From Halovenus rubra (GTDB lineage Archaea > Halobacteriota > Halobacteria > Halobacteriales > Haloarculaceae), in assembly GCF_026586665.1 (NCBI RefSeq), contig NZ_JAODIY010000001.1, forward strand, positions 62,001 to 126,000: a stretch of 64,000 nt of DNA, given 5' to 3'. Below, piece after piece: positions 6,030-61,907 of the stretch (positions within the stretch are counted from its first letter, which is position 1; each line of letters starts with the position of its first letter). The notes below the pieces were generated by a model. The model had not been told where the DNA came from. It did not search any database and worked only from the letters and a program-made list of their open reading frames with translations. A program made the translations under genes and the position numbers.

Positions 6030-6416
6030 ATGGACGTCGAAGCATTCTTCGAGAACATGCCGTTTGCACAGCTACTGGGCGTCGAAGTTACCGAGGTTGC
6101 TGACGGACACGCTGAGGGGTATCTCGAAATTGATGAGGAACTCTCGTGGAACGATGATACGCTCATGGCCCACGGCGGCGTCACGTTCACACTCGCAGAC
6201 ACCGTTGGAGGTGCGGCTCTTGTCTCGCTTGTCGACCAGCCGGTCCCGACTATCGACATGCGTATCGATTATCTCAGTGCTGCCACCGGTGATATCTACG
6301 CCGAGGCGGATGTTGTTCGCTGTGGTGATGATGTTGGGGCGGTTGATGTCGAGGTATTCTCAGCTGAGGATGAGACGCTGTTGGCCGATGCGCGTGGCGT
6401 CTACAAAACGGGGTAG
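6030..6416 (+). CDS. PaaI-family hotdog thioesterase
   Basis: A 128-residue single hotdog-fold protein from ATG 6030. The family core is clear: LLGVEVTEVADGHAEGYLEI, then the helix segment AHGGVTFTLADTVGGAAL carrying the HGG..TLAD signature of PaaI/4-hydroxybenzoyl-CoA thioesterases, then a closing strand (TIDMRIDYLSAATGD). It is predicted to hydrolyse acyl- or aryl-CoA thioesters, perhaps clearing dead-end CoA esters. An in-frame GTG at 6015 would add five residues, but the TATA-like box and family length favour the ATG. It converges with the membrane-protein pair ending at 6424, with only 7 bases between. The substrate cannot be told. Confidence 0.88.
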   Translation: MDVEAFFENMPFAQLLGVEVTEVADGHAEGYLEIDEELSWNDDTLMAHGGVTFTLADTVGGAALVSLVDQPVPTIDMRIDYLSAATGDIYAEADVVRCGDDVGAVDVEVFSAEDETLLADARGVYKTG

Positions 6417-6423
6417 GTTTTGA

Positions 6424-7089
6424 TCACTCGGCACGCAACTGAGTGAGCCGGTCCCACAGTGCGTCTGAGAGGTCAGTCAGGTGGGCAGTGCCCCAGATGG
6501 CGACGACTACGCCACCGATAGCGTCGAAAACGAGGTCAAGCAGTGTATCGTCTAGTCCGTGTTGCGTAAATCCGGTTGTATTGGAGCCGAGTGCTTGAGC
6601 AACTTCGGCGATACTGAACTCTAGCAGCTCCCAGACGACACCGAAGGCGGTGACGAACACGAGAATGAATACAAACATGAACCGCGCAGGCAGGTCGATA
6701 CCGTCTGCGTGTTCGTCGAAAGCACGAACGGTCGCGTACCCAGCAGCGGCAACGACCGACGCCGAAAGGGCATGTGTCATGTTATCATATATTGGTATCG
6801 AGCCGTACAGTGACTGTCCTGTTCCCGGAATTCCAACGACGCCAATAGTATGCAGGAATGCTGCACCAGTAATCCAGAGCGTGAGTCCGGCATTCATCGG
6901 TATTTCGTGGTCTCGTTCGAGTAGCGCCGGGAGAAAAGTCACGGCGAGACCGACACTGACCGTGACAAGCAAGGCTGCTTCCTGGCGTTCTAGTGCGACA
7001 AAGAGTAATCCAAACAATGTCAGCTGCATCGCGCGACTAAGCTGGCGCTGGTGTTGTTCAGAGAGTGAGAGACGAGTCCGCACGCTCAT
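6424..7089 (-). CDS. YjdF/DUF2238-like integral membrane protein
   Basis: A 221-residue protein with about five to six hydrophobic helices. The segment YDNMTHALSASVVAAAGYA, with FGVVWELLEF and DTLLDLVFDAIGGVV further on, matches the DUF2238/YjdF-like family, where conserved Asp, His and Glu sit at helix ends. The biochemical role of the family is unknown. Its start overlaps the stop of the upstream membrane-protein gene by four bases (ATGA), so the two are translationally coupled and may form a complex. The N-terminus (SVRTRLSLSEQHQRQL) is probably cytoplasmic. Confidence 0.8.
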   Translation of the reverse strand: MSVRTRLSLSEQHQRQLSRAMQLTLFGLLFVALERQEAALLVTVSVGLAVTFLPALLERDHEIPMNAGLTLWITGAAFLHTIGVVGIPGTGQSLYGSIPIYDNMTHALSASVVAAAGYATVRAFDEHADGIDLPARFMFVFILVFVTAFGVVWELLEFSIAEVAQALGSNTTGFTQHGLDDTLLDLVFDAIGGVVVAIWGTAHLTDLSDALWDRLTQLRAE

Positions 7090-7706
7090 GGCTTCCCCAT
7101 ATCGCTATAGAAGCGCTCGTTCAGTGCTGTCCGCCGGAAGTATATCTGGAAGATAACGCCTGCGAATAGGCCTGCAAGCGCTGAATAGAGAAACTCAATC
7201 ATCAACTCGTCGTGGATAGTCTGCTCGCTTACACCCGGCTTGAGTAATGTGGTTGTATCAAAAAGCAGGTCAACCCGCCAACGGATGACAGCCCCAACAC
7301 CGGCAGCAGCCAGTGTAGCGAGAATAACGAAGCCGATAGCGAATCCAATTGTCATCTCTACATCGGTAAACAGTTCTAGTTCGACAGCAACGATGAGTGC
7401 GAGTGCAGCAATCGAGATGTAAACCAGAAACGCACCGGGAATGAGTGACGGTGTGATTGCCTGGCCAAACGTCGGTAGCGCAGCGAGAGCGACGACCTCC
7501 CAGGGAAGCATCGTCTGGCTATCACGGAATGTGACCGTTGGAACGAGACAAAGCGCTATGATACCAACTACAAACAGTGCCCATGGAATATCACCGTCAG
7601 CGACGCTCTCGGCAACAACGATGCCGAGAAAGAGAACAAAGAGCCAGGCAACGAGTGCGTTGCCTCGACGATCAGCCAGGAGGTCTCCCGGCGAGAAATC
7701 TACCAT
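7086..7706 (-). CDS. Haloarchaeal integral membrane protein, unknown function
   Basis: A 206-residue protein starting MVDFSPGDLLADRRGN at ATG 7706; the frame continues upstream, but with no likely start. About six hydrophobic helices cover most of its length, with a soluble loop after helix 4 (DTTTLLKPGVSEQTIHDEL) and a last helix (EFLYSALAGLFAGVIFQIYF). I recognise no enzyme motif. It overlaps the DUF2238-like gene downstream by four bases, so they form an operon and probably act together in the membrane. With this start it clears the neighbouring hydrolase gene (stop at 7765) by 58 bases. Confidence 0.7.
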   Translation of the reverse strand: MVDFSPGDLLADRRGNALVAWLFVLFLGIVVAESVADGDIPWALFVVGIIALCLVPTVTFRDSQTMLPWEVVALAALPTFGQAITPSLIPGAFLVYISIAALALIVAVELELFTDVEMTIGFAIGFVILATLAAAGVGAVIRWRVDLLFDTTTLLKPGVSEQTIHDELMIEFLYSALAGLFAGVIFQIYFRRTALNERFYSDMGKP

Positions 7707-7764
7707 AATGGGAGTAATACCGGGAGGATGAAAACTATTCAGGATTCTGTGTCTCAACTCACAG

Positions 7765-8694
7765 TCAGCCAACGATGAGATAGCCAGCACTGTACGCTAG
7801 CCACGCAATCGTCACAGCTGCCAGCCCAGTTGTGACGAGACTTAGTTTTGACCGCGCTGTATCAAGCTCCGGCGTCGGTAGGTCGACGACGCCTACAAGG
7901 CCAACGGCGAGGACACTGAACACGAAGTGGTACGACACTGAAAGCGTCGGCGGCGGCAGTGCCAGTAGCGTTCCAACATAGCCGGCCCCGAGTACAGCAC
8001 GGCGGTGGATACGCCCCCAAACGCGTTCACCGCGCAGTCCAAGATAGACCGTCATCGCGAGCCAGACTGTTATGAGTTCGAGTCCGAACGTTCCCAACAG
8101 GTGCACTGTCGGATCGGCCGACAGCATGACTCTCTTAGGGAGGAGATGGATATCGAGCGGATATAGCAGGTGCGGTACAGTCCCTGTAAAGATATCACCA
8201 AAGGGGTGACTGAGAATCCCGATGAATGCTGCCCCGGCCGTTTCGCCTGCGTCGAGACCGCCTACCCGTGCGCCGACCACGACAGCTCCGCCTGCGAGTA
8301 CGAACAGACTCACGACTCCTGCCCGCAGTCCGCCAAGGACTCCCAGTGTCACAGCAACGAGACTGGCGAGTCCGAGTACCCCAGCGATGCGTCGGCGGCC
8401 GTGGGACGCAGATAGCCCAAACAGCATTGCCCCAAGGCCGCCGACGAGCAGCGAGTGTGTTATGCCACGGTGAACAGTGTTGCCAGTCTCCCAGAACGCC
8501 TCGGGAAACTGTGTTGGGCCGTCGGCTAAAATCGTTATCAGCCCGACCACCGCGTACCCCATATCGACATCTGGCACGACTGCGAAGGCACCTGCGACGG
8601 CGCCAAACAGCAAAGCACGCTCACGGGGGAGACCGACGGCGGCGGCGACGCCAGCCGCGAGTGCGAACGCCAGCGCCGTATGCCCAACCATCAT
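7765..8694 (-). CDS. Membrane-bound metal-dependent hydrolase (YdjM/DUF457-like)
   Basis: About 309 residues starting at one of two adjacent ATGs (8694 or 8691). The N-terminus MVGHTALAFALAAG, the Asp-rich FAVVPDVDMGY and the His motif VHRGITHSLLVGG are typical of the YdjM/DUF457 membrane hydrolases, where His and Asp residues bind a metal. A later HPFGDIFTG continues the metal-site pattern. About eight hydrophobic helices are present. It is upstream of the membrane-protein pair on the same strand (58-base gap). The natural substrate is unknown. An in-frame non-ATG start further upstream would add residues that do not look like family sequence. Confidence 0.85.
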   Translation of the reverse strand: MMVGHTALAFALAAGVAAAVGLPRERALLFGAVAGAFAVVPDVDMGYAVVGLITILADGPTQFPEAFWETGNTVHRGITHSLLVGGLGAMLFGLSASHGRRRIAGVLGLASLVAVTLGVLGGLRAGVVSLFVLAGGAVVVGARVGGLDAGETAGAAFIGILSHPFGDIFTGTVPHLLYPLDIHLLPKRVMLSADPTVHLLGTFGLELITVWLAMTVYLGLRGERVWGRIHRRAVLGAGYVGTLLALPPPTLSVSYHFVFSVLAVGLVGVVDLPTPELDTARSKLSLVTTGLAAVTIAWLAYSAGYLIVG

Positions 8695-8784
8695 CGTTCT
8701 CTGATGTAGCTGGGCAGTCGGCTTAAGCCGTTCGTGTATCACTCTCACACGGTAGCCCGGTCAGGATGCCTTGATTTGGAGGGC

Positions 8785-9789
8785 TTAGCGTAGTTCGGGT
8801 GCGACCTCCTCGCCGAGTCGATGGATGCAGTCGGTCATCTCTTCGGTCCCAACACCGGGATGATAGGTGCGGAAAATGAAGTGAATGTCGTCGCCCAGGG
8901 CATGCTTGTACGTTTCGAGCTGTTCAGTCACCTGCTCGGGCGTGCCAAAGATAGCCTGCTCTTTGAGTTCTTTCTTGCGCTCGGAATCAAGTTTGGCGAC
9001 AGATTCGCCAGAGAATATCTCTTCGTAGCGGCGCTGGATGTAAAAGTATCCATCTTTCATCGTCTCCCACGCCTCCTCGCGAGAGTCACCGACCCAACCA
9101 TGTTGGATGACGTAGTTCGTAAACTCGCCGTCGATTTCGTCGTTTTCCCGAACCGTCCGGATATCTTCAACGCGCTTTTTGACGCCACCAATCGACAGCG
9201 CTGAGGGAGCACACCATCCCTCTGCTTCCCGCGCGGCCCGACGAACGGCGGGTTTCGCACCGCCACCGAGCATAATGGGGATTTCATCCGCTGGCTTTGG
9301 CGTAATCGACACGTCACTGGGGATATCGTGAAACACCAAGTCATAGTCCAGCTCGCCCTCACTCCAGGCCCCACGGAGGAACGGAACCAACTCACTAAGC
9401 CGCTCAGCCCGCTCATCTCGGGGGACTCCGAACACGTCGAACTCGCGGGGGTTCGAGCCAATAGAGAGGCCAAGCGTAAGTCGGCCGTCAGCAATCAGGT
9501 CGACAGTCGCGGCGTCTTCTGCAAGTCGAATGGGTTCATACAGTGGACCAAGCGCAATACACGACCCGATTTCGATGTTGTCAGTCTCGGCGGCCATCGC
9601 CGACAGCGTTGGCATCGTCGCTGAGAGGTAGCCGTCCTCGGCGAAGTGATGCTCTGACACCCACGCGCTGTCGAGACCGACTGCCTCGATTTCGCGGGTA
9701 AGGGCAAGCACTTCGTCGTAGAGTTCGCTTGCCGAGCGGTCGTCATCCGGTCGCTGCTGGGCAGTAAAGAGACCAGTCCCGAGTTGCAT
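8785..9789 (-). CDS. LLM-class (luciferase-like) flavin or F420-dependent oxidoreductase
   Basis: A 334-residue TIM-barrel protein of the bacterial luciferase-like family, near the usual family length. The N-terminal strand is LGTGLFTAQQ. AWVSEHHFAEDGYLSATMP carries the SEHH signature, and IEIGSCIALGPLYEPIRLAE and DGRLTLGLSIGSNPREFDVF are core family segments. PIMLGGGAKPAVRRAAREAE is the flavin or F420 phosphate-binding region. It probably oxidises or monooxygenates a small organic substrate with FMN or coenzyme F420; F420 is common in haloarchaea, but the sequence does not decide. It stands alone between a thioesterase and the YdjM-like gene, all on the minus strand. Confidence 0.9.
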   Translation of the reverse strand: MQLGTGLFTAQQRPDDDRSASELYDEVLALTREIEAVGLDSAWVSEHHFAEDGYLSATMPTLSAMAAETDNIEIGSCIALGPLYEPIRLAEDAATVDLIADGRLTLGLSIGSNPREFDVFGVPRDERAERLSELVPFLRGAWSEGELDYDLVFHDIPSDVSITPKPADEIPIMLGGGAKPAVRRAAREAEGWCAPSALSIGGVKKRVEDIRTVRENDEIDGEFTNYVIQHGWVGDSREEAWETMKDGYFYIQRRYEEIFSGESVAKLDSERKKELKEQAIFGTPEQVTEQLETYKHALGDDIHFIFRTYHPGVGTEEMTDCIHRLGEEVAPELR

Positions 9790-50802: not shown

Positions 50803-50877
50803 TCTCCCAAAGCCGCTGTCATCTACAAATTAGTGAGTTTCACAGGCTTTATACTCATTTTCGAAGTAATTGGGACA

Positions 50878-52437
50878 ATGGATGACAGCTGGCGGTATCG
50901 ACTCTCCAGTTTCTTTGGGACGGCCCTGGTGACGGTCGCAGCTGTTGTGGTGACGAATCTTCGTGTCGTCCACGAGGCGTTCGGTCGCGTGCCGTTCTTT
51001 GGGAACCCTGCGCCTGAGGTGTTACCAGCCAGCGAAGTACAGTTCGCAATTATGACAACACTTTTTGTCATTCTTTTCACGATGTGGCCACTGTTCAAGC
51101 CACAGCCCCGACGGATTTTGGATACCATCTTGTTGGCTCAAAAGCGGATATTCCTCGCAATGGTCGGGCTGGCAGCAATTGGATACTTCAAGTACTCCTA
51201 CCGGTTGCCCCGGACGACACTCATGTTGACGACCATCGCGCTGGCTATCGCGTTGCCACCGTTCATGATTGCTATACGTCGCCGCCCCCGCTCAAGCTCT
51301 CGGGCAGTTATCATCGGAGACGACCCACAGGCGATGGAGTCATTGCTCACAGCGACTGATTTACCGGTGCTTGGATATGTCTCGCCGCCGTCAGTGTATG
51401 CTCCAGATGGAATCGAATCCCGTACAATAGAACTTCCGGATGGGGAAAACGTTGAAGACGATCTGGATATGTTACCGTGTCTTGGCGGCATTGCTCGACT
51501 GGAAGATGTTTTCGTCGAAAATGATGTCGATACGGCACTGCTAGCTTTTGCGGCGACCGACCGTGAGGAGTTTTTCGGGACGCTTGAGGCCTGCTACGAT
51601 AATGGCGTGAACGCACTGGTGCATCGAGACCACGCTGACCACGTGTTGACCGACGACTTCTCTGGTGAACGTTTACTCGACGTAGACTTGGAGCCGTGGG
51701 ACTGGCAGGATTATATCGTAAAACGCCTCTTTGATGTCGTATTTGTTGGAACTGCATTTGTCGTCCTCTCGCCTGTTATCGCACTGATTGGGGTGGCAAT
51801 CAAACTCGATGACGGTGGGCCACTGCTGTACCGCCAAGAGCGAACTGCCGTGTTTGGTCGAACGTTCACTGTGCGAAAGTTTCGATCAATGGTCTCTGCT
51901 ACCGAAGATACGTTGCCCGACTCCGAGGAAAAACAGCGTATCACTCGCGTCGGAAGCGTGCTCCGCAAGACACACTTAGACGAGATTCCGCAGCTGTGGG
52001 CGATTCTTGCTGGAGACATGAGCGTTGTTGGCCCACGAGCTGTGTGGACTGACGAGGAAGTCCACCTCGAAAATAAAACCACTGCGTGGCGCAAACGGTG
52101 GTTTATCAAGCCTGGTTTGACTGGGCTGGCACAAATAAACAACGCGACAAGCGCTGAAGCCGAGGATAAACTTAGATATGACCTGCAGTACATTCGCCAG
52201 CAGTCGTTCTGGTTTGATATAAAAATTGTTGTGCGACAGCTGTGGCAGGTAGGTGGCGAAATGTTTGACTTCGCATCCTCTCAACAGAAATCTAACAGCA
52301 CTGAACCGTCCCAACAGACAACCAACGAATCAACACAAGCTTCGAGCAACGAAACTGACCAGTACGCAGATTCACCAACTGAGAGCTCTCAAAAACACGG
52401 AGAAGACGCAGAGACGGTTACCGGCGAGCAACCGTAA
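50878..52437 (+). CDS. Polyprenyl-phosphate sugar-1-phosphate transferase (WbaP-type)
   Basis: A 519-residue protein starting MDDSWRYRLSSFFG at ATG 50878, preferred to GTG 50833. Four N-terminal helices and a CoA-binding-like cytosolic part (RRPRSSSRAVIIGDDPQAME) precede the conserved bacterial sugar transferase domain: KRLFDVVFVGTAFVVLSPV, PLLYRQERTAVFGRTFTVRK then FRSM, RVGSVLRKTHLDEIPQLWAI, and PGLTGLAQIN. It moves a sugar phosphate from a nucleotide onto a lipid carrier, the first step of a surface polysaccharide. A Gln/Ser/Thr-rich acidic tail of about 60 residues follows. Confidence 0.94.
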   Translation: MDDSWRYRLSSFFGTALVTVAAVVVTNLRVVHEAFGRVPFFGNPAPEVLPASEVQFAIMTTLFVILFTMWPLFKPQPRRILDTILLAQKRIFLAMVGLAAIGYFKYSYRLPRTTLMLTTIALAIALPPFMIAIRRRPRSSSRAVIIGDDPQAMESLLTATDLPVLGYVSPPSVYAPDGIESRTIELPDGENVEDDLDMLPCLGGIARLEDVFVENDVDTALLAFAATDREEFFGTLEACYDNGVNALVHRDHADHVLTDDFSGERLLDVDLEPWDWQDYIVKRLFDVVFVGTAFVVLSPVIALIGVAIKLDDGGPLLYRQERTAVFGRTFTVRKFRSMVSATEDTLPDSEEKQRITRVGSVLRKTHLDEIPQLWAILAGDMSVVGPRAVWTDEEVHLENKTTAWRKRWFIKPGLTGLAQINNATSAEAEDKLRYDLQYIRQQSFWFDIKIVVRQLWQVGGEMFDFASSQQKSNSTEPSQQTTNESTQASSNETDQYADSPTESSQKHGEDAETVTGEQP

Positions 52438-55326: not shown

Positions 55327-56799
55327 TTACTGTAGATAGCCAAGGTCTTCGAGCTGTTCTTTCGTGCCTTCTTGCATCTCCACAGTCCCAGAATAGTTTG
55401 CTTGCTCAAACGAATCAAGCCACCCGTCTAGCTCGCCGTTTAACTCTTCTCGCAGCTCGTCTTCGGTTCTCGCGATATTGCTCGTCTCGTCGGGGTCGTT
55501 CTTGAGATCGAAAAGCTTCATAGAGTCGTCCGAGCCACGTATGAGCTTCCAGCGATCTGACCGGAGTGCGCGAAGCGATCTGTTGTAGTCATACACCGTG
55601 TCTGGCAGGTCGCCTACACGTTTTTCCAACGCCTCCATCGACGGCTGAGGTGCCATGTATTCGGCGACAACGAAATCCCTTGGCTCAGTTTCGGACTGTG
55701 GATGGAATGACTTCGCTAACATCTGTTTCCGGAACTGGGGTGCATCTATGTCGGCTGCATCAAGAAGTGTGGGAGCAAGGTCAGGTAACTGGACGAGCTC
55801 GTCAATTGTCGTTCCACCAGCGAACCCGCCACCGTTGATGATGAGTGGTATATGAAGGAGCGTATCGTAGAGACCGTACTGGTGGTCCATTAGTCCGTGA
55901 TCGCCGATGTTTTCGCCGTGGTCTCCTGTAACGACGAATATCGTCTCTTCCCACTCATCCTCGTTTTTAAGATATTCTTGCAGTTCACCGATTTGCTGGT
56001 CCAAATAAGAGATTTCGGCTCGGTACAGCGCCTCAAGGATCTCAAAGTCGGCTTCGTCCATCTCGACCTGTTGTGCGATATAGCGCCAGGCATCCTGATT
56101 GACCTCCATCGCCTCCTCGTATGAGACTTGCTCAGGCAGTAACGGCTCGACGTATTCACGTGGTGGCCGGTATTCGAGATGCGGTTCAAGATAGTTTACA
56201 AACAAAAAGAACGGGAGTTCGGTATCTCTTTGAGCCAACCAGTCACGTATCCAGTCGTTTGTAGATTGTGCCCCGTCATCCTTTGCCTGCTTTCGCACGA
56301 GTTGTCCATATACAGCGTTCGCAACGTTCACTACGGGATTCCCATCCAATATTTTATATGCGACCCCACGAAGCTTATCAACCCCTTCTCGTGCGCGAGC
56401 AACTTTTCCCAAGTCAACATCTGACTGAATGTACTGCCAGTTTTTCCGAAATACGTCGAAGCCGCGAGCGAACCCAAACTCTTCACTAATCCATGTATTA
56501 TTCGAAATCCCTACTGTTCGATATCCGGCCTCACTGAGAACCTCCGGTAACAGCCGCTGTTCGTTTTCAAGTTGCTTGTGCCCTGCATGTGCGCCGTGTT
56601 TTGAGGGGGTTGTTCCGGTAAATAGAGACGCGTGTGAGGGTAGGGTCCACGGGCTAACACTGAATGCACGCGAGTACGAGATGCCGTCTGCTGCAATCGC
56701 ATCAATATTGGGAGTGAGGTCTGTTTCTCTCTGTAAAAAAGCATCTGCACGGGCAGTATCCATGACAATGAATACGATGTTTGGCTTCTCCTCGTTCAT
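55327..56799 (-). CDS. Sulfatase/AlkP-superfamily protein with Thr in the nucleophile position
   Basis: 490 residues. NIVFIVMDTARADAFLQ starts the metal site. SVSPWTLPSHASLFTG stands where sulfatases have C/S-x-P-S-R; here Thr-x-Pro-Ser-His replaces it. Later ligands are VVTGDHGENIGDHG, with other motifs VVAEYMAPQ and RSDRWKLIRGSDD. With Thr as nucleophile it should act as a phospho-transferase or hydrolase, not as a formylglycine sulfatase. No signal peptide is evident. The C-terminus is LEDLGYLQ. It overlaps the start of the next AlkP-fold gene's stop region by four bases, so they are an operon. Confidence 0.88.
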   Translation of the reverse strand: MNEEKPNIVFIVMDTARADAFLQRETDLTPNIDAIAADGISYSRAFSVSPWTLPSHASLFTGTTPSKHGAHAGHKQLENEQRLLPEVLSEAGYRTVGISNNTWISEEFGFARGFDVFRKNWQYIQSDVDLGKVARAREGVDKLRGVAYKILDGNPVVNVANAVYGQLVRKQAKDDGAQSTNDWIRDWLAQRDTELPFFLFVNYLEPHLEYRPPREYVEPLLPEQVSYEEAMEVNQDAWRYIAQQVEMDEADFEILEALYRAEISYLDQQIGELQEYLKNEDEWEETIFVVTGDHGENIGDHGLMDHQYGLYDTLLHIPLIINGGGFAGGTTIDELVQLPDLAPTLLDAADIDAPQFRKQMLAKSFHPQSETEPRDFVVAEYMAPQPSMEALEKRVGDLPDTVYDYNRSLRALRSDRWKLIRGSDDSMKLFDLKNDPDETSNIARTEDELREELNGELDGWLDSFEQANYSGTVEMQEGTKEQLEDLGYLQ

Positions 56800-58400
56800 A
56801 TATATCCGAGATCTTCCAGACGTTCTTGGACTGCATCGTCATCCTCCCGGGATGTTTTTTCTCCGGAAGCAGTCAGAGTTTCAATCGAAGCGGTTTCTGT
56901 GTTGTCGCTGTCTCGTCTCTCAGAGGTAAACTCAGACACAACCTCCCCATCAACTTCGGTCGGAACCGGAAGATCATGAAGAGACAACAGGGTCGGCGCT
57001 ATATCGTAGATACTCGCGTTGAGACCCGTTCCAGTGTCGACGGGCGGTCCTGACGCGATAACGATTCCATCACGGTTGTGGCCACCATTTCGAGCTTTTG
57101 ATGGGGGACCTGTCGAGAATATCTCACTTTCTGTACTAGGACGTGGGTCGACAGCACACTTGAAATCGTCTATTTCAACCATCAAATCCGGCGCAAGGTC
57201 CGTATTTTTACCGTGATACATCTCATCAGATTCATGAACCGTAACGGATTCGGGGCCATCTGCTCGTTCTGTGAGTGAGCGTAATTGGTTGACTACCTCA
57301 TGTTTGTCTTCTTTCTCATCCGTAAGCAAATAAATCATACCGGCGGTAAGGTTTTGCCGCGGAGCAAAGGCGGTGCTCCGCTCGAAATCAATTCCCTCAC
57401 CAGGTGTCTTGCGAATCGACTCGCCAACGGACTTTGCAAAGTCGTTCAGTTGCGGGACAACACTAACGACTGATTCACCGACCCGCCGCAGGTATGGAAA
57501 GTACTTGGTTCGGGCTTGGTCTATTACCGATTGTTTCTCGTATTTGAGATACCCCTCCTGTTCAAGCCATTCGTTTGAATGAAATGTTTTGTTGACCGGG
57601 CCAAATCCATGATCTGAGACCAACAACAGGGTAGCATTCTCCTCGCGAGCAAGGTCTGCTACAGTTCCGACCGCTTTGTCCACGCGCTTCCAAATCCGTG
57701 TGAGCACGTCGTCGTAATCTGTATCTGGATCATACTGTGGGTGGTCTTCGTCGACGTAGCGCCAGAAGTAATGCTGTGCCCAGTCAGTTGCGCTGATAAT
57801 TCCGAAAAAGTGGTCGGGGTCTTTTTCAGTGAGCAGATACTCAATCGCTGTTTCACGCTTTTCTATTATGTCCAACAGATCTGACTTGAGCTCACCAGGG
57901 CGGCCTTGATATTTTGGGTCCGCGTACGGCACTTTGACCTGATATTCACCGGTCACATTATCAAGTTCTCCAGCGAGTGACTTGGGATAGGTAATCGCGT
58001 CACCTGTCTCTGAACCAAGGCCGCTAACCATGAATCCATCAATCTCGTAGGGCGGATAAAGCATCGGATAATTGAAAATCCCTACTGAACTGTCGTGCGC
58101 TGAGAGAACGTCCCAGAAGCTCTGTCCGCGAAACTTCTCCGAACTCAGCGTCTCAAAATCAAATGAATCACTGCTTTTTCTATTCAGAAAGTAAAAGACA
58201 CCCGTCTTTCCGGGGTTTTGACCCGTTGCCATTGAGAGCCAGGCTGGAGCGGTAATTGGCGGAAACGTACTTTCCAGTGTGCCAGTGTGACCTGTTGAAC
58301 ACACCTGTTCTATATGCGGAAGGTCGCCACTCTCGATAAGGGGACGAATAATATCCCAAGTAGCCCCATCGAGACCCAAGACGATTGTCTCAGTCATCAT
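56796..58400 (-). CDS. Alkaline-phosphatase-superfamily phosphodiesterase/phosphotransferase
   Basis: A 534-residue protein of the type I phosphodiesterase/nucleotide pyrophosphatase group. TIVLGLDGATWDIIRPLIES binds metal. TFPPITAPAWLSMATGQNPG has the Thr nucleophile, and ISATDWAQHYFWRYVDEDHP and LLLVSDHGFGPVNKTFH supply Asp and His ligands. GGHNRDGIVIASGPP closes the site. It ends QERLEDLGYI. The substrate may be a glycan-linked phosphodiester or nucleotide. Start 58400 or 58397 are both ATG; the gene upstream ends at the same base. Confidence 0.88.
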   Translation of the reverse strand: MMTETIVLGLDGATWDIIRPLIESGDLPHIEQVCSTGHTGTLESTFPPITAPAWLSMATGQNPGKTGVFYFLNRKSSDSFDFETLSSEKFRGQSFWDVLSAHDSSVGIFNYPMLYPPYEIDGFMVSGLGSETGDAITYPKSLAGELDNVTGEYQVKVPYADPKYQGRPGELKSDLLDIIEKRETAIEYLLTEKDPDHFFGIISATDWAQHYFWRYVDEDHPQYDPDTDYDDVLTRIWKRVDKAVGTVADLAREENATLLLVSDHGFGPVNKTFHSNEWLEQEGYLKYEKQSVIDQARTKYFPYLRRVGESVVSVVPQLNDFAKSVGESIRKTPGEGIDFERSTAFAPRQNLTAGMIYLLTDEKEDKHEVVNQLRSLTERADGPESVTVHESDEMYHGKNTDLAPDLMVEIDDFKCAVDPRPSTESEIFSTGPPSKARNGGHNRDGIVIASGPPVDTGTGLNASIYDIAPTLLSLHDLPVPTEVDGEVVSEFTSERRDSDNTETASIETLTASGEKTSREDDDAVQERLEDLGYI

Positions 58401-59497
58401 CAGGACCTTTCAGCCATCATCTCATAAAGGTTCAGATACTCCTGAGCAGTATACCCCAACGAAAACTTCTCCCGCGCACGCTCTCTTGTTTCGTTTCCGC
58501 TTTGCTCACACTTGTCTGGGTTTTCGAGCAATTCGACAACCGCGTTTGTGAACGTATCTGGGACATTCGGGTCTGCAAAGATACCAGGATCACCGACCAC
58601 TTCACGGAGAACGTGAATATCACTGACGACGACAGGTAGGCCCGCGGCCATTGCTTCGACTGCTGCGACACAGAACCCCTCGTACCAAGAGGGGAATACA
58701 GCAATTTGTGCTTCTTTATACACCCCATATACATCTTCACGGCGGGGGAGATAGCCGGTGAATATAACGCTTTCTTCGATACCCAAGTCGGCTGCCAGCG
58801 TTTCAAGCTCGTCAGACAGCGGACCATCTCCGACGATAACTAAGGTTGCTTCCGGCACCTGATTGACAACCTTGCTAAAGGCCCTGAGTAACGTCGAATA
58901 ATTCTTTTGCTCAACTAACCGACCCGCTGTCACAACCAGTGGGTCTGTTGGTAGATCTATCACCGAGTCTTCTGTCTCATCTATTCGGCTCGTATCGATG
59001 CCGTTGTATACGACTTCGTGCCGAGTCTCGCCAAGAAGTAGCTTCTCATACCATTCGAGAGAGGTTTTGGTGTTTTTGGAGTTCGACACCATCGTATCGG
59101 TAAGCGGGTAGGTAACAGCGTTTACTGACTTCTGAAGATGCGAAAAATACTGATGGTCATTGTGTTCTGTATTGATTATCTGGGTGTCCGTTCCGACGAC
59201 GGCAAGCCGACTGATTGACCCTGTCGAGTTATGATGAGTATGCAAAATATCGACATTTTGCTCGACACAGATGCGACGCAGTCGGCGGTACGCCGCAAGG
59301 TCTATGCGGGAACTTGCATTAAGTTTGAACATTGGTATGTCGAGTGCCTCGACATCCGGGTCGATAGAGTCTTCTGGACCGTCGTAGTAAGAGACTAGCG
59401 TAATCTCAACACCGCTCTGTGAGTGTGTTTTGGCCGCAATTTCAACTGGAATAGACGTCGATGTAAACTCATTCACAAATACGAGAACGCGGACCAT
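58400..59497 (-). CDS. Glycosyltransferase, GT4 family
   Basis: A 365-residue GT-B enzyme. VLVFVNEFTSTSIPVEIAAK starts the N-terminal domain, and VDILHTHHNSTGSISRLAVV is its interior helix. The donor domain shows VTAGRLVEQKNYSTLLRAFS, VIVGDGPLSDELETLAADL and the E-x7-E motif EGFCVAAVEAMAAGLPVVVS. It lies upstream of the two AlkP-fold genes on the same strand, forming a three-gene operon. A TATA-like box GTATTATAAG (minus strand, 59521-59530) sits 24-33 bases before its ATG, giving a leaderless start. Confidence 0.95.
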   Translation of the reverse strand: MVRVLVFVNEFTSTSIPVEIAAKTHSQSGVEITLVSYYDGPEDSIDPDVEALDIPMFKLNASSRIDLAAYRRLRRICVEQNVDILHTHHNSTGSISRLAVVGTDTQIINTEHNDHQYFSHLQKSVNAVTYPLTDTMVSNSKNTKTSLEWYEKLLLGETRHEVVYNGIDTSRIDETEDSVIDLPTDPLVVTAGRLVEQKNYSTLLRAFSKVVNQVPEATLVIVGDGPLSDELETLAADLGIEESVIFTGYLPRREDVYGVYKEAQIAVFPSWYEGFCVAAVEAMAAGLPVVVSDIHVLREVVGDPGIFADPNVPDTFTNAVVELLENPDKCEQSGNETRERAREKFSLGYTAQEYLNLYEMMAERS

Positions 59498-59520
59498 GGA
59501 GCTAATTGGGAGCCAGAATC

Positions 59521-59530
59521 CTTATAATAC
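59521..59530. promoter_or_regulatory. Palindrome-like TATA box shared by divergent glycan genes
   Basis: CTTATAATAC (plus strand) reads GTATTATAAG on the minus strand. It lies 24-33 bases before the GT4 start at 59497, and 30-39 before the membrane polymerase start at 59560. It could serve both directions. Confidence 0.5.
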
Positions 59531-59559
59531 TTCGGAGTTCAATCAGGAGTACTATATTT

Positions 59560-60825
59560 GTGACCCAAAGTATCGACCAAGAAAAAACACATTCCCTCCA
59601 TATCTCCTCTCCGAGGAGCGCTTTCAGAGTCAGCTCGGTTACCATTTTGTTTGTTTTGATGTCGTTCATGGTCCGCATTCCTGGCCCAGTGGAACCGCTG
59701 CCTGATATCCGTCTCGGGGGGACCGTTATTGGCATCTCAAACATCTACGTTTTTGTTCTTACTGGCTTTGTAGGGCTATATGTCGTACTGACCGCTGTTG
59801 CTAATGACCGCAGTTCTGTACTGGTCCCTCGGTCAACAAAATACGTCTCTTTAGTCTGTTTCGCAATCGTTGTCTCAGCAGTCGCCAATGCAACGATTAG
59901 CGTCACAATCTTCACCGAGATATTTCAGTGGATTGGGCTTGCGTTGATAGCTGGACTTGTGGCTAACGTTCTCCGGAGTGAAACGGAGATCCGGATGCTG
60001 TTGTGGAGCATTATCCTGGTTGCCACAGCGAAGGCATTAATGGTAGCTCTCAGTCTGCTCGTGTTTGGTATTCCTATCTCGAGTTACGGAATGATTGTTA
60101 TGGGTGTCGGATTTATCATACTCACTTCCGTCACACTGGACACTGGTGTGACGAAATGGCGAGCATTAGCTGCTCTATTGATGACTTTTCCAATTATCGT
60201 CTCAAAAGACCGCAAGGGAATCGCCGCGTTCCTGTTTGCTTTTATAGCGCTGTTGATGTGGCGTTACTTTGGAACCAAAGACAGGCAAATGACTACTGCA
60301 GTTTGGCCGGCACTGGCCCTCACAGTAGCTAATGGTATTCTGCTACTGACATTTATCCCCTCACTCCGAATTACCGTGTTTCAGGCTTTGGAGACGATTT
60401 TACTCCCGCTATCGGAACCTCGATATCATCTCTATCAAACTGGAGTCAATATGTTTGCGGAGAACCCACTGTTCGGTGTCGGGCCGGACAACTGGCATGC
60501 TGCCAAGCCAGCGTATGCAACTACCGGACTCGAAGCTCTCGAAGGTGCCAAAGATTGGGGGACCCACAGCTACTATCTAAAAATCCTGTCTGAAATCGGT
60601 ATGGTCGGCTTTGTCCCGTTTATGTTCCTCGTAATGTTGCCATTTAAACAAGTCAGTCACTTTGTCACCAAGTCACAATCCCATCATGACCTGTGGGGAA
60701 TTGTGTTCGCGCTTGCTGTCTATTTTTCGACAATCGCAGCGTTCAGCGCAATATCGAAACCAACACAAACTGGCTGGTTCGTCACGCTCGGGCTGGCAAC
60801 TGTTTTGTCAAAACTATCGGAATAA
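59560..60825 (+). CDS. O-antigen ligase/polymerase-like membrane protein
   Basis: A 421-residue protein from GTG 59560, chosen because AGGAG lies nine bases before it and the resulting start MTQSIDQEKTH is polar. A TTG at 59506 would add a basic segment. About eleven hydrophobic helices are present, with a soluble loop carrying NPLFGVGPDNWHAAKPAYAT then DWGTHSYYLKILSEIGMVGF. This NPLxGxG...H...L pattern is the Wzy/WaaL O-antigen ligase signature. It would polymerise or ligate lipid-linked glycan at the outside of the membrane. It is divergent from the GT4 operon. Confidence 0.87.
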   Translation: MTQSIDQEKTHSLHISSPRSAFRVSSVTILFVLMSFMVRIPGPVEPLPDIRLGGTVIGISNIYVFVLTGFVGLYVVLTAVANDRSSVLVPRSTKYVSLVCFAIVVSAVANATISVTIFTEIFQWIGLALIAGLVANVLRSETEIRMLLWSIILVATAKALMVALSLLVFGIPISSYGMIVMGVGFIILTSVTLDTGVTKWRALAALLMTFPIIVSKDRKGIAAFLFAFIALLMWRYFGTKDRQMTTAVWPALALTVANGILLLTFIPSLRITVFQALETILLPLSEPRYHLYQTGVNMFAENPLFGVGPDNWHAAKPAYATTGLEALEGAKDWGTHSYYLKILSEIGMVGFVPFMFLVMLPFKQVSHFVTKSQSHHDLWGIVFALAVYFSTIAAFSAISKPTQTGWFVTLGLATVLSKLSE

Positions 60826-60929
60826 CATACCGGTGTGATAGGAATATTACCAAGACGAGAGAGAATCGGCTGACAACAAATGGAGCACAAGGACCAATTA
60901 TCCTAAGGAACGATACTTTGTCCTGTTGT

Positions 60930-61907
60930 TTACTGTTTATATCCAAGATCTTTGAGCCGGTCGGCAACGACCGACGATGTTGCCGACTCGCTTCTCTCAT
61001 CGGTAGAATCTTTATAAGTAGTACGACGCTCCCCGTTCGTGTGTTCTAACCACGGCACCTGGGTGAGTGGCTCATCGTAGAGTCCACGAGGATGACCGTA
61101 TTCACGAACAGGAACCGGAAATGCCCGTTCGCCGACATAGTTGCCATGGTCAGACGTGAGTACATTCTTCCCTGGCAGACTCGTCCATAATCGTTCTACA
61201 TGCTCAAGAACGTATTCAAGATTTGCAGTGTAAAGACTCCATAATTTCTCCCGAGAGATATCAATTTCCCCGGCGAATTTCATGTTCCATACGTTTTCTC
61301 CAGCAGCGCCATCCTTATCGCTCTCAATTGAGTCCAAGTGAGTTTTATCAACAGCCGTATCAGCAGGAACAAATGGATAATGCGGTTGCATGTAGTGAAC
61401 GACGAGGCGCTTGTTCGGGAATTGCTCATGTGCGTCGATTGCAGCGTCGGTCATCGTTTCAGCGAGTACGGTCCCTGTCTGTTCGTCCCACCCTGAATCC
61501 AACCAGACGTTGGCGACGTGGTGAAACTTCACCTTCCAGTCGTCGCGGTGGCGTTCCAGTTGTGGATTTGCAGTCACGTATACTGTGTCGCGAAGGTCAC
61601 GTCCATCAACGTTTGCGCCAAGCCACTCTGTTGTTGCTGAGCCTTTCGACGGCTTTGCTGAGAGTGACCCTTCAAGAGAATTGTTCTTTTCGAACATATC
61701 ATACCGGCAGGCGTCAAGCACGATGAGTGTATCCCAGTCTTCCTCAAAGACATCGATACCGCCTGGATTCTGAACTCGCAACCCGGCACGTCGGTGGAAC
61801 AGACGATTCATATCTCGAGCAAAAAGACGAGGCGTACGAACTGCCTGCATAAATCGCTGTAACAAACCCCTATCAACGGTAGACTGTTCTATCTGATAGT
61901 CTCTCAT
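60930..61907 (-). CDS. Sulfatase-like AlkP-superfamily protein, short form
   Basis: A 325-residue protein. WDTLIVLDACRYDMFEKNN is the metal-binding start and SKGSATTEWLGANVDGRDLR the nucleophile region, where Thr-Thr replaces the Cys/Ser motif. VVHYMQPHYPFVPADTAVD and VLTSDHGNYVGERAFPVPVR give His/Asp ligands. The C-terminus is DRLKDLGYKQ. About 50 basic N-terminal residues (TPRLFARDMNRLFHRRAGLR) may lie on the membrane. It resembles the haloarchaeal sulfatase-like proteins placed in glycan loci and probably handles a phosphoester. It converges with the O-antigen-like gene and diverges from the capsule-like gene. Confidence 0.85.
   Translation of the reverse strand: MRDYQIEQSTVDRGLLQRFMQAVRTPRLFARDMNRLFHRRAGLRVQNPGGIDVFEEDWDTLIVLDACRYDMFEKNNSLEGSLSAKPSKGSATTEWLGANVDGRDLRDTVYVTANPQLERHRDDWKVKFHHVANVWLDSGWDEQTGTVLAETMTDAAIDAHEQFPNKRLVVHYMQPHYPFVPADTAVDKTHLDSIESDKDGAAGENVWNMKFAGEIDISREKLWSLYTANLEYVLEHVERLWTSLPGKNVLTSDHGNYVGERAFPVPVREYGHPRGLYDEPLTQVPWLEHTNGERRTTYKDSTDERSESATSSVVADRLKDLGYKQ

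Follow-up and report, generated by a model that had tools for sequence, protein, structure and literature searches.

An LGY tail on AlkP-superfamily enzymes of a haloarchaeal glycan locus: a candidate helical docking element

The EptA/MCR phosphoethanolamine transferases are membrane-anchored, and enzymes of the EptA/MCR/LtaS type are defined by an N-terminal membrane domain joined to a catalytic domain. Formylglycine sulfatases are recognized by a Cys, or a Ser for FGly, in the motif C-x-P-S-R. An assimilatory-sulfate cluster with the gene order copG-Sat-DHH pApase-AlkP-CysC has been described in Pyrococcus yayanosii (PYCH_17520-17560; PMC8268124). As far as that description of the cluster goes, its CopG-like member is a putative transcription factor and it has been speculated that its AlkP removes pyrophosphate. 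No copG-Sat-DHH-AlkP-CysC cluster is found among the annotated genes of the window considered here, a 64,000-nucleotide stretch of DNA from Halovenus rubra.

The window contains a glycan locus, with a sugar transferase, two GT4 glycosyltransferases, a polysaccharide deacetylase, an O-antigen ligase family protein and capsule-synthesis proteins, and in these surroundings lie three minus-strand ORFs, P1, P2 and P3 (Table 1). A sequence-only reading of this DNA had noted that they share a tail, LEDLGYLQ, LEDLGYI and LKDLGYKQ, respectively; when the ORF ends were checked, the tail was present exactly as noted, with the P1 translation terminating in ...KEQLEDLGYLQ. All three proteins end in L..LGY followed by 0-5 residues, and the sharing of this tail is far beyond chance.

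The same reading had called the enzymes very different. All three, however, belong to one superfamily. P1 matches the Pfam Sulfatase family PF00884 (E 8e-40), P2 matches Phosphodiest PF01663 (E 6e-40), and P3 has a weak match to PF00884 (E 2e-05), slightly below the cut-off. In homologue alignments, the metal-ligand residues D65, D253-H254-G255 and H272 of P3 are invariant, as are D11 and S262-D263-H264-G265 of P2. Judged by these conserved metal-ligand Asp/His motifs and by the profile matches, of which that of P3 is borderline, P1, P2 and P3 are all assigned to the AlkP superfamily. P1 has Thr in PWTLPSHASLFTG in place of the residue that defines formylglycine sulfatases; the assignment of all three to Thr/Ser-type AlkP domains is based on an aligned nucleophile for the P1 family only. 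The best solved folds for P3 are the catalytic domains of EptA/MCR (E 4.5e-07), but P3 lacks a hydrophobic segment and the fold TM-scores are low (~0.45); the likeness is one of fold alone.

Table 1. Positions in the window of the three tailed proteins, their C-terminal elements and neighbouring glycan-locus genes
Feature	Position	Strand	Basis
P1, sulfatase-family AlkP with Thr nucleophile (SPWTLPSHASLFTG), 490 aa, no hydrophobic segment	55327..56799	-	ORF, Pfam PF00884, nucleophile alignment
P1 tail TKEQLEDLGYLQ, residues 479-490	55330..55365	-	ORF and DNA tail scan
P2, type I phosphodiesterase/nucleotide pyrophosphatase-family AlkP, 534 aa; 4 bp overlap with P1 start	56796..58400	-	ORF, Pfam
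P2 linker, residues 497-517, low-confidence, precedes tail	56850..56912	-	AF2 pLDDT <50 in 497-520; low conservation
P2 tail helix, residues 518-534, end QERLEDLGYI; L528, G532, Y533 invariant in 15 homologues	56799..56849	-	alignment, AF2
P3, compact AlkP, 325 aa; nearest solved folds are EptA/MCR catalytic domains	60930..61907	-	ORF, Pfam, AF2, fold comparison
P3 variable linker, residues 296-310	60978..61022	-	homologue alignment; AF2 pLDDT ~60 in 301-310
P3 tail, residues 311-325, end ADRLKDLGYKQ; L318, L321, G322, Y323 invariant in 28 homologues	60933..60977	-	alignment, AF2
GT4 glycosyltransferase, glycan-locus context, same strand as P1/P2; 1 bp overlap with P2	58400..59497	-	gene annotation
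Sugar transferase (PF02397), glycan-locus context	50833..52437	+	gene annotation
O-antigen ligase family protein (Wzy_C), glycan-locus context	59506..60825	+	gene annotation

A motif search on haloarchaeal AlkPs, as proposed in the sequence-only reading, bore out the association. Among 1425 non-redundant ORFs, called mechanically in sampled haloarchaeal loci, the tail is found on 112 of 136 AlkP-fold ORFs and on five of 1289 others (Fisher p ~5e-135); the queries that retrieved the P2 and P3 loci were full-length, tail included, a bias of which the PF00884-profile sample is free. Relatives of P3 occur in 222 of the 242 Halobacteria genomes sampled and, among the matches listed, most extend to the final residues of the query. 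The consensus is V..RL..LGY plus one or two residues, the latter trailing LGY in 150 of 159 tails; the corresponding tail peptide is EEEKVKERLRALGYLD. A literature search for 'LGY motif' found no paper, and the tail is apparently both ancient and hitherto undescribed. When the organism's own genome was scanned at the DNA level for L..LGYx(0-3)stop and the matches were read in frame, ten plausible tailed genes emerged, eight AlkP-fold, one CysD-like and one small RHH-like. A second cluster, at C1:312-318 kb (L043), contains two tailed AlkPs ending LKQLGYLN and LKNLGYV.

The PF00884 sulfatase profile is blind to the tail, allowing nucleophile types to be compared without tail bias. In the sample drawn with it, all 35 Thr/Ser-nucleophile proteins are tailed, whereas none of the 15 Cys-type, true sulfatases is (p 4e-13). 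In genomes outside the Halobacteria, the motif was found on 12 Thr-type proteins and on none of nine Cys-type proteins. Thus, the tail appears to mark AlkPs other than classical formylglycine sulfatases. There is an exception in the organism's own genome, where one of four PF00884 proteins, a Ser-type sulfatase-family AlkP (C48:131115-132119; L047:9104-10381), ends ..SPTTRIAR and alone lacks the tail. The motif sets phospho-type AlkPs apart from true sulfatases, both of which are often annotated 'sulfatase'.

The tail does not prove to be specific to glycan loci. A glycosyltransferase lies nearby far more often for tailed AlkPs (45/76) than for true sulfatases (0/12). Nevertheless, non-Cys AlkPs are commonly tailed with or without such a neighbour: the tail is present on 45 of 48 with a glycosyltransferase detected within 6 kb and on 31 of 38 without, in a sample partly chosen for the tail and with incomplete glycosyltransferase detection. 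An exclusive glycan-locus tag was rejected on these counts, and this part of the sequence-only reading falls by the refuting condition which that reading had itself set.

In the P3 family (28 aligned homologues), the Leu, Gly and Tyr residues of the tail are as invariant as the catalytic residues, while the linker ahead cannot be aligned. The P2 family (15 homologues) likewise combines a conserved tail with a variable preceding linker. The AlphaFold model of P3 has a mean pLDDT of 85.8. For both P2 and P3 a helix follows the low-confidence linker, that of P3 with moderate confidence (~78), and the last residues, including LGY, have pLDDT ~62-63. In these models, which were computed for monomers only and from shallow alignments (28 and 15 rows), the helix forms and no confident docking in cis is seen. 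A tethered helix with its docking site elsewhere would be consistent with this, although such models carry limited weight.

We judge the chances to be about even that the LGY tail serves Ser/Thr-nucleophile AlkP-superfamily enzymes as a helical docking element, ancient and conserved. The tail would form an amphipathic helix, tethered and closed by a Gly cap, and would dock by its Leu/Leu/Tyr face into a protein groove; in this way the soluble AlkPs would be gathered into complexes with their paralogues and with partners in the pathway. The tail probably allows docking among these enzymes or onto a common partner.

Proteins without an AlkP domain also carry the tail. A DNA tail scan of nine genomes, for which most in-frame matches were fetched, recovered AlkPs, a CysD-like protein, an APS kinase and small CopG-like proteins; the motif is strictly conserved and near-exclusive to Ser/Thr-type AlkPs and these three kinds of partner, and a variable linker precedes it where it is terminal. 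In the APS kinases, the tail sits at the end of a stretch that extends past the kinase profile, and their neighbours are ATP sulfurylase and sulfotransferases. The CopG-like tailed proteins of haloarchaea are located in glycan loci; the CopG-like mini-protein matches RHH_1 (PF01402) weakly, at 13.4 bits against a cut-off of 20.5, and matched nothing in a solved-structure search. The CysD-like protein, of the PAPS-reductase family, ends ...QDKEDLMERLRDLGYM in genomes where its ORF was recovered. The tail connects poorly understood AlkPs of archaeal glycan loci with enzymes of sulfate activation, and the motif offers a direct way to test which proteins form assemblies.

Individual loci add detail. 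The organism's own genome has a cassette of sulfotransferase, ATP sulfurylase and APS kinase (L309 = C34:250000-265000, 6044-8809); its APS kinase, at C34:258 kb, is extended at the C-terminus by a tailed segment that ends VTDRLKSLGYLED. A CysD-like protein ending ..GRAQDKEDLMERLRDLGYM is found in L301-L305, L308 and L081:7443-8414, and in L081 it adjoins a tail-less AlkP. At L171:12793-13656 a sulfotransferase-like protein ending LTELGYVQDSSW, possibly a longer-ended version of the tail, lies beside genes for a tailed AlkP and an APS kinase. The PF13469 sulfotransferase occurs in only two of 39 genomes and is uninformative as to association with the tail.

Outside the haloarchaea the tail and the AlkP are often split. 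A collection search with the mini-protein gave matches in Archaeoglobi, Thermococci, Thermoplasmatota, Thermoproteota, DPANN, an Asgard archaeon, Aminicenantes and one haloarchaeon. It is commonly encoded upstream of Sat, DHH, AlkP and CysC, and the AlkP of these clusters lacks the tail. In Archaeoglobi, Thermococci, Thermoplasmatota, Aminicenantes and an Asgard archaeon, the neighbour of a tail-less AlkP is a mini-protein with VKERLRALGYLD, and Sat, DHH and CysC are often present too; at the Asgard locus, the tailed mini-protein comes immediately after a tail-less Thr-type AlkP. Many of these loci match the gene set and order of the P. yayanosii cluster, whose CopG-like member corresponds to the tailed mini-protein; the published description of that cluster (PMC8268124) does not mention the tail, which in the window is fused to glycan-locus AlkPs instead. 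Some operons with a tailed mini-protein lack a clustered AlkP, and nine of ten such genomes have a PF01663 protein elsewhere, which counts for little in so common a family. The tail-less operon AlkPs form one subfamily, and for this reason the split pattern may reflect a single ancestral event.

In Archaeoglobi-type genomes, P2-like and P3-like AlkPs have another, basic tail, ending LK..GKI or similar, which was found on 12 of 24 AlkP ORFs and one of 314 others with a search pattern written after examples had been seen. Such AlkPs are encoded at L228:7441-9021 and L228:14045-14977, and also in L218, L220, L223-L225, L227, L231, L233 and L235. A lineage-specific tail common to both kinds of AlkP is what would be expected if tail and receptor co-evolve.

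In Aminicenantes, Thr-type sulfatase-family proteins carry L..LGY just past the AlkP domain and ahead of TPR repeats, and in two cases at the terminus. The internal form, with a C-terminal extension, is found in L409-L412, L416, L419, L420, L426, L430 and L432, and Pfam confirmed the repeats in the seven such proteins scanned. A free C-terminus is therefore not essential. A tblastn search of plasmids with P2 gave essentially haloarchaea only, and the few bacterial plasmid matches fetched all lack the tail.

It is possible, if unlikely, that the helix instead belongs to the structure of the Thr/Ser-type AlkP domain as its C-terminal element, packed in cis as a stability cap or active-site lid and inherited from an ancestor common with the bacterial AlkP-TPR proteins. 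The position of the helix directly after the AlkP domain in Aminicenantes, inheritance of the tail along with the nucleophile type and the moderate AF2 confidence of the P3 helix would all suit such an element. However, it would be at odds with the freely variable stretch ahead of the tail, the low pLDDT of the LGY block and the same tail on APS kinase extensions, CysD-like and CopG-like proteins. Solved-structure matches of P1 and of one bacterial AlkP-TPR protein gave no best matched stretch that reaches LGY from the AlkP side.

The tail might alternatively bind a dedicated common scaffold, such as a TPR protein in trans, which gathers enzymes of glycan synthesis or sulfate activation. The TPR arrays that follow the motif in Aminicenantes and the occurrence of the tail on four protein families of linked pathways point this way, as does the exclusion of ATP sulfurylase, which was rejected as a general receptor because it is encoded in only four of 116 haloarchaeal genomes while tailed AlkPs are widespread. 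Nevertheless, no candidate scaffold emerged from the loci examined, and we regard this alternative as doubtful.

The sequence-only reading had proposed a docking, sorting or membrane-association signal. The docking part is favoured, since the tail is strictly conserved although the linker before it varies, and since it recurs on the three kinds of partner, which belong to linked pathways. A signal that brings soluble enzymes to the membrane where lipid-linked glycans are made would suit the glycan-locus context and the Archaeoglobi-type tail, a basic amphipathic helix, but it is very unlikely because no enzyme has a detectable membrane segment: none of the AlkP ORFs examined contains a hydrophobic stretch. 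Moreover, in haloarchaea the helix is short and has acidic flanks; the tail is also carried by sulfate-activation enzymes and CopG-like proteins, and it is internal in Aminicenantes. Finally, a C-terminal degradation signal setting enzyme lifetime, for which the extreme terminal position with its one or two trailing residues might argue, is hardly credible for a motif that is confined to a small number of families linked in function, that lies inside the protein in Aminicenantes and that occurs in lineages as far apart as these and the Asgard archaea.

If the tail is a docking element, the leading, though speculative, candidate for its receptor is the AlkP catalytic domain, either the enzyme's own (in cis) or that of a neighbour. 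This domain is a possible receptor because the tail alternates between being fused to the AlkP and being carried on a neighbouring protein, and it would explain why a separate tail-bearing protein is encoded beside the tail-less sulfate-operon AlkPs. The hypothesis is weakened, however, by the membership of all these tail-less AlkPs in one subfamily, and the finding that the widespread CysD-like protein adjoins an AlkP in some genomes only also counts against it, as do the operons in which a tailed mini-protein has no clustered AlkP. In a broader proposal, to which we attach a rather low likelihood, the LGY helix would serve Ser/Thr-type AlkP domains as a portable recognition element. It could be provided in cis, in front of TPR repeats, or come in trans from a CopG-like protein, an APS kinase or a CysD-like enzyme, and it would thereby couple AlkPs to nucleotide-activating enzymes throughout Archaea and in some Bacteria. 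If so, the CopG-like protein of the archaeal sulfate operon, the putative 'transcription factor', would be an adaptor for enzyme assembly and not a regulator.

Among known systems, the bacterial sulfatase-TPR proteins of Aminicenantes resemble the haloarchaeal AlkPs in that a Thr-type PF00884 domain is followed directly by the L..LGY helix, although in the former a TPR array comes after it and the latter end there. C-terminal docking motifs such as PDZ ligands are, like the LGY tail, short, usually terminal, tethered by a linker and common to unrelated partners. Unlike these, the LGY tail is predicted to be helical and is internal in some bacteria, and it is as a candidate docking motif that it may be set beside them.
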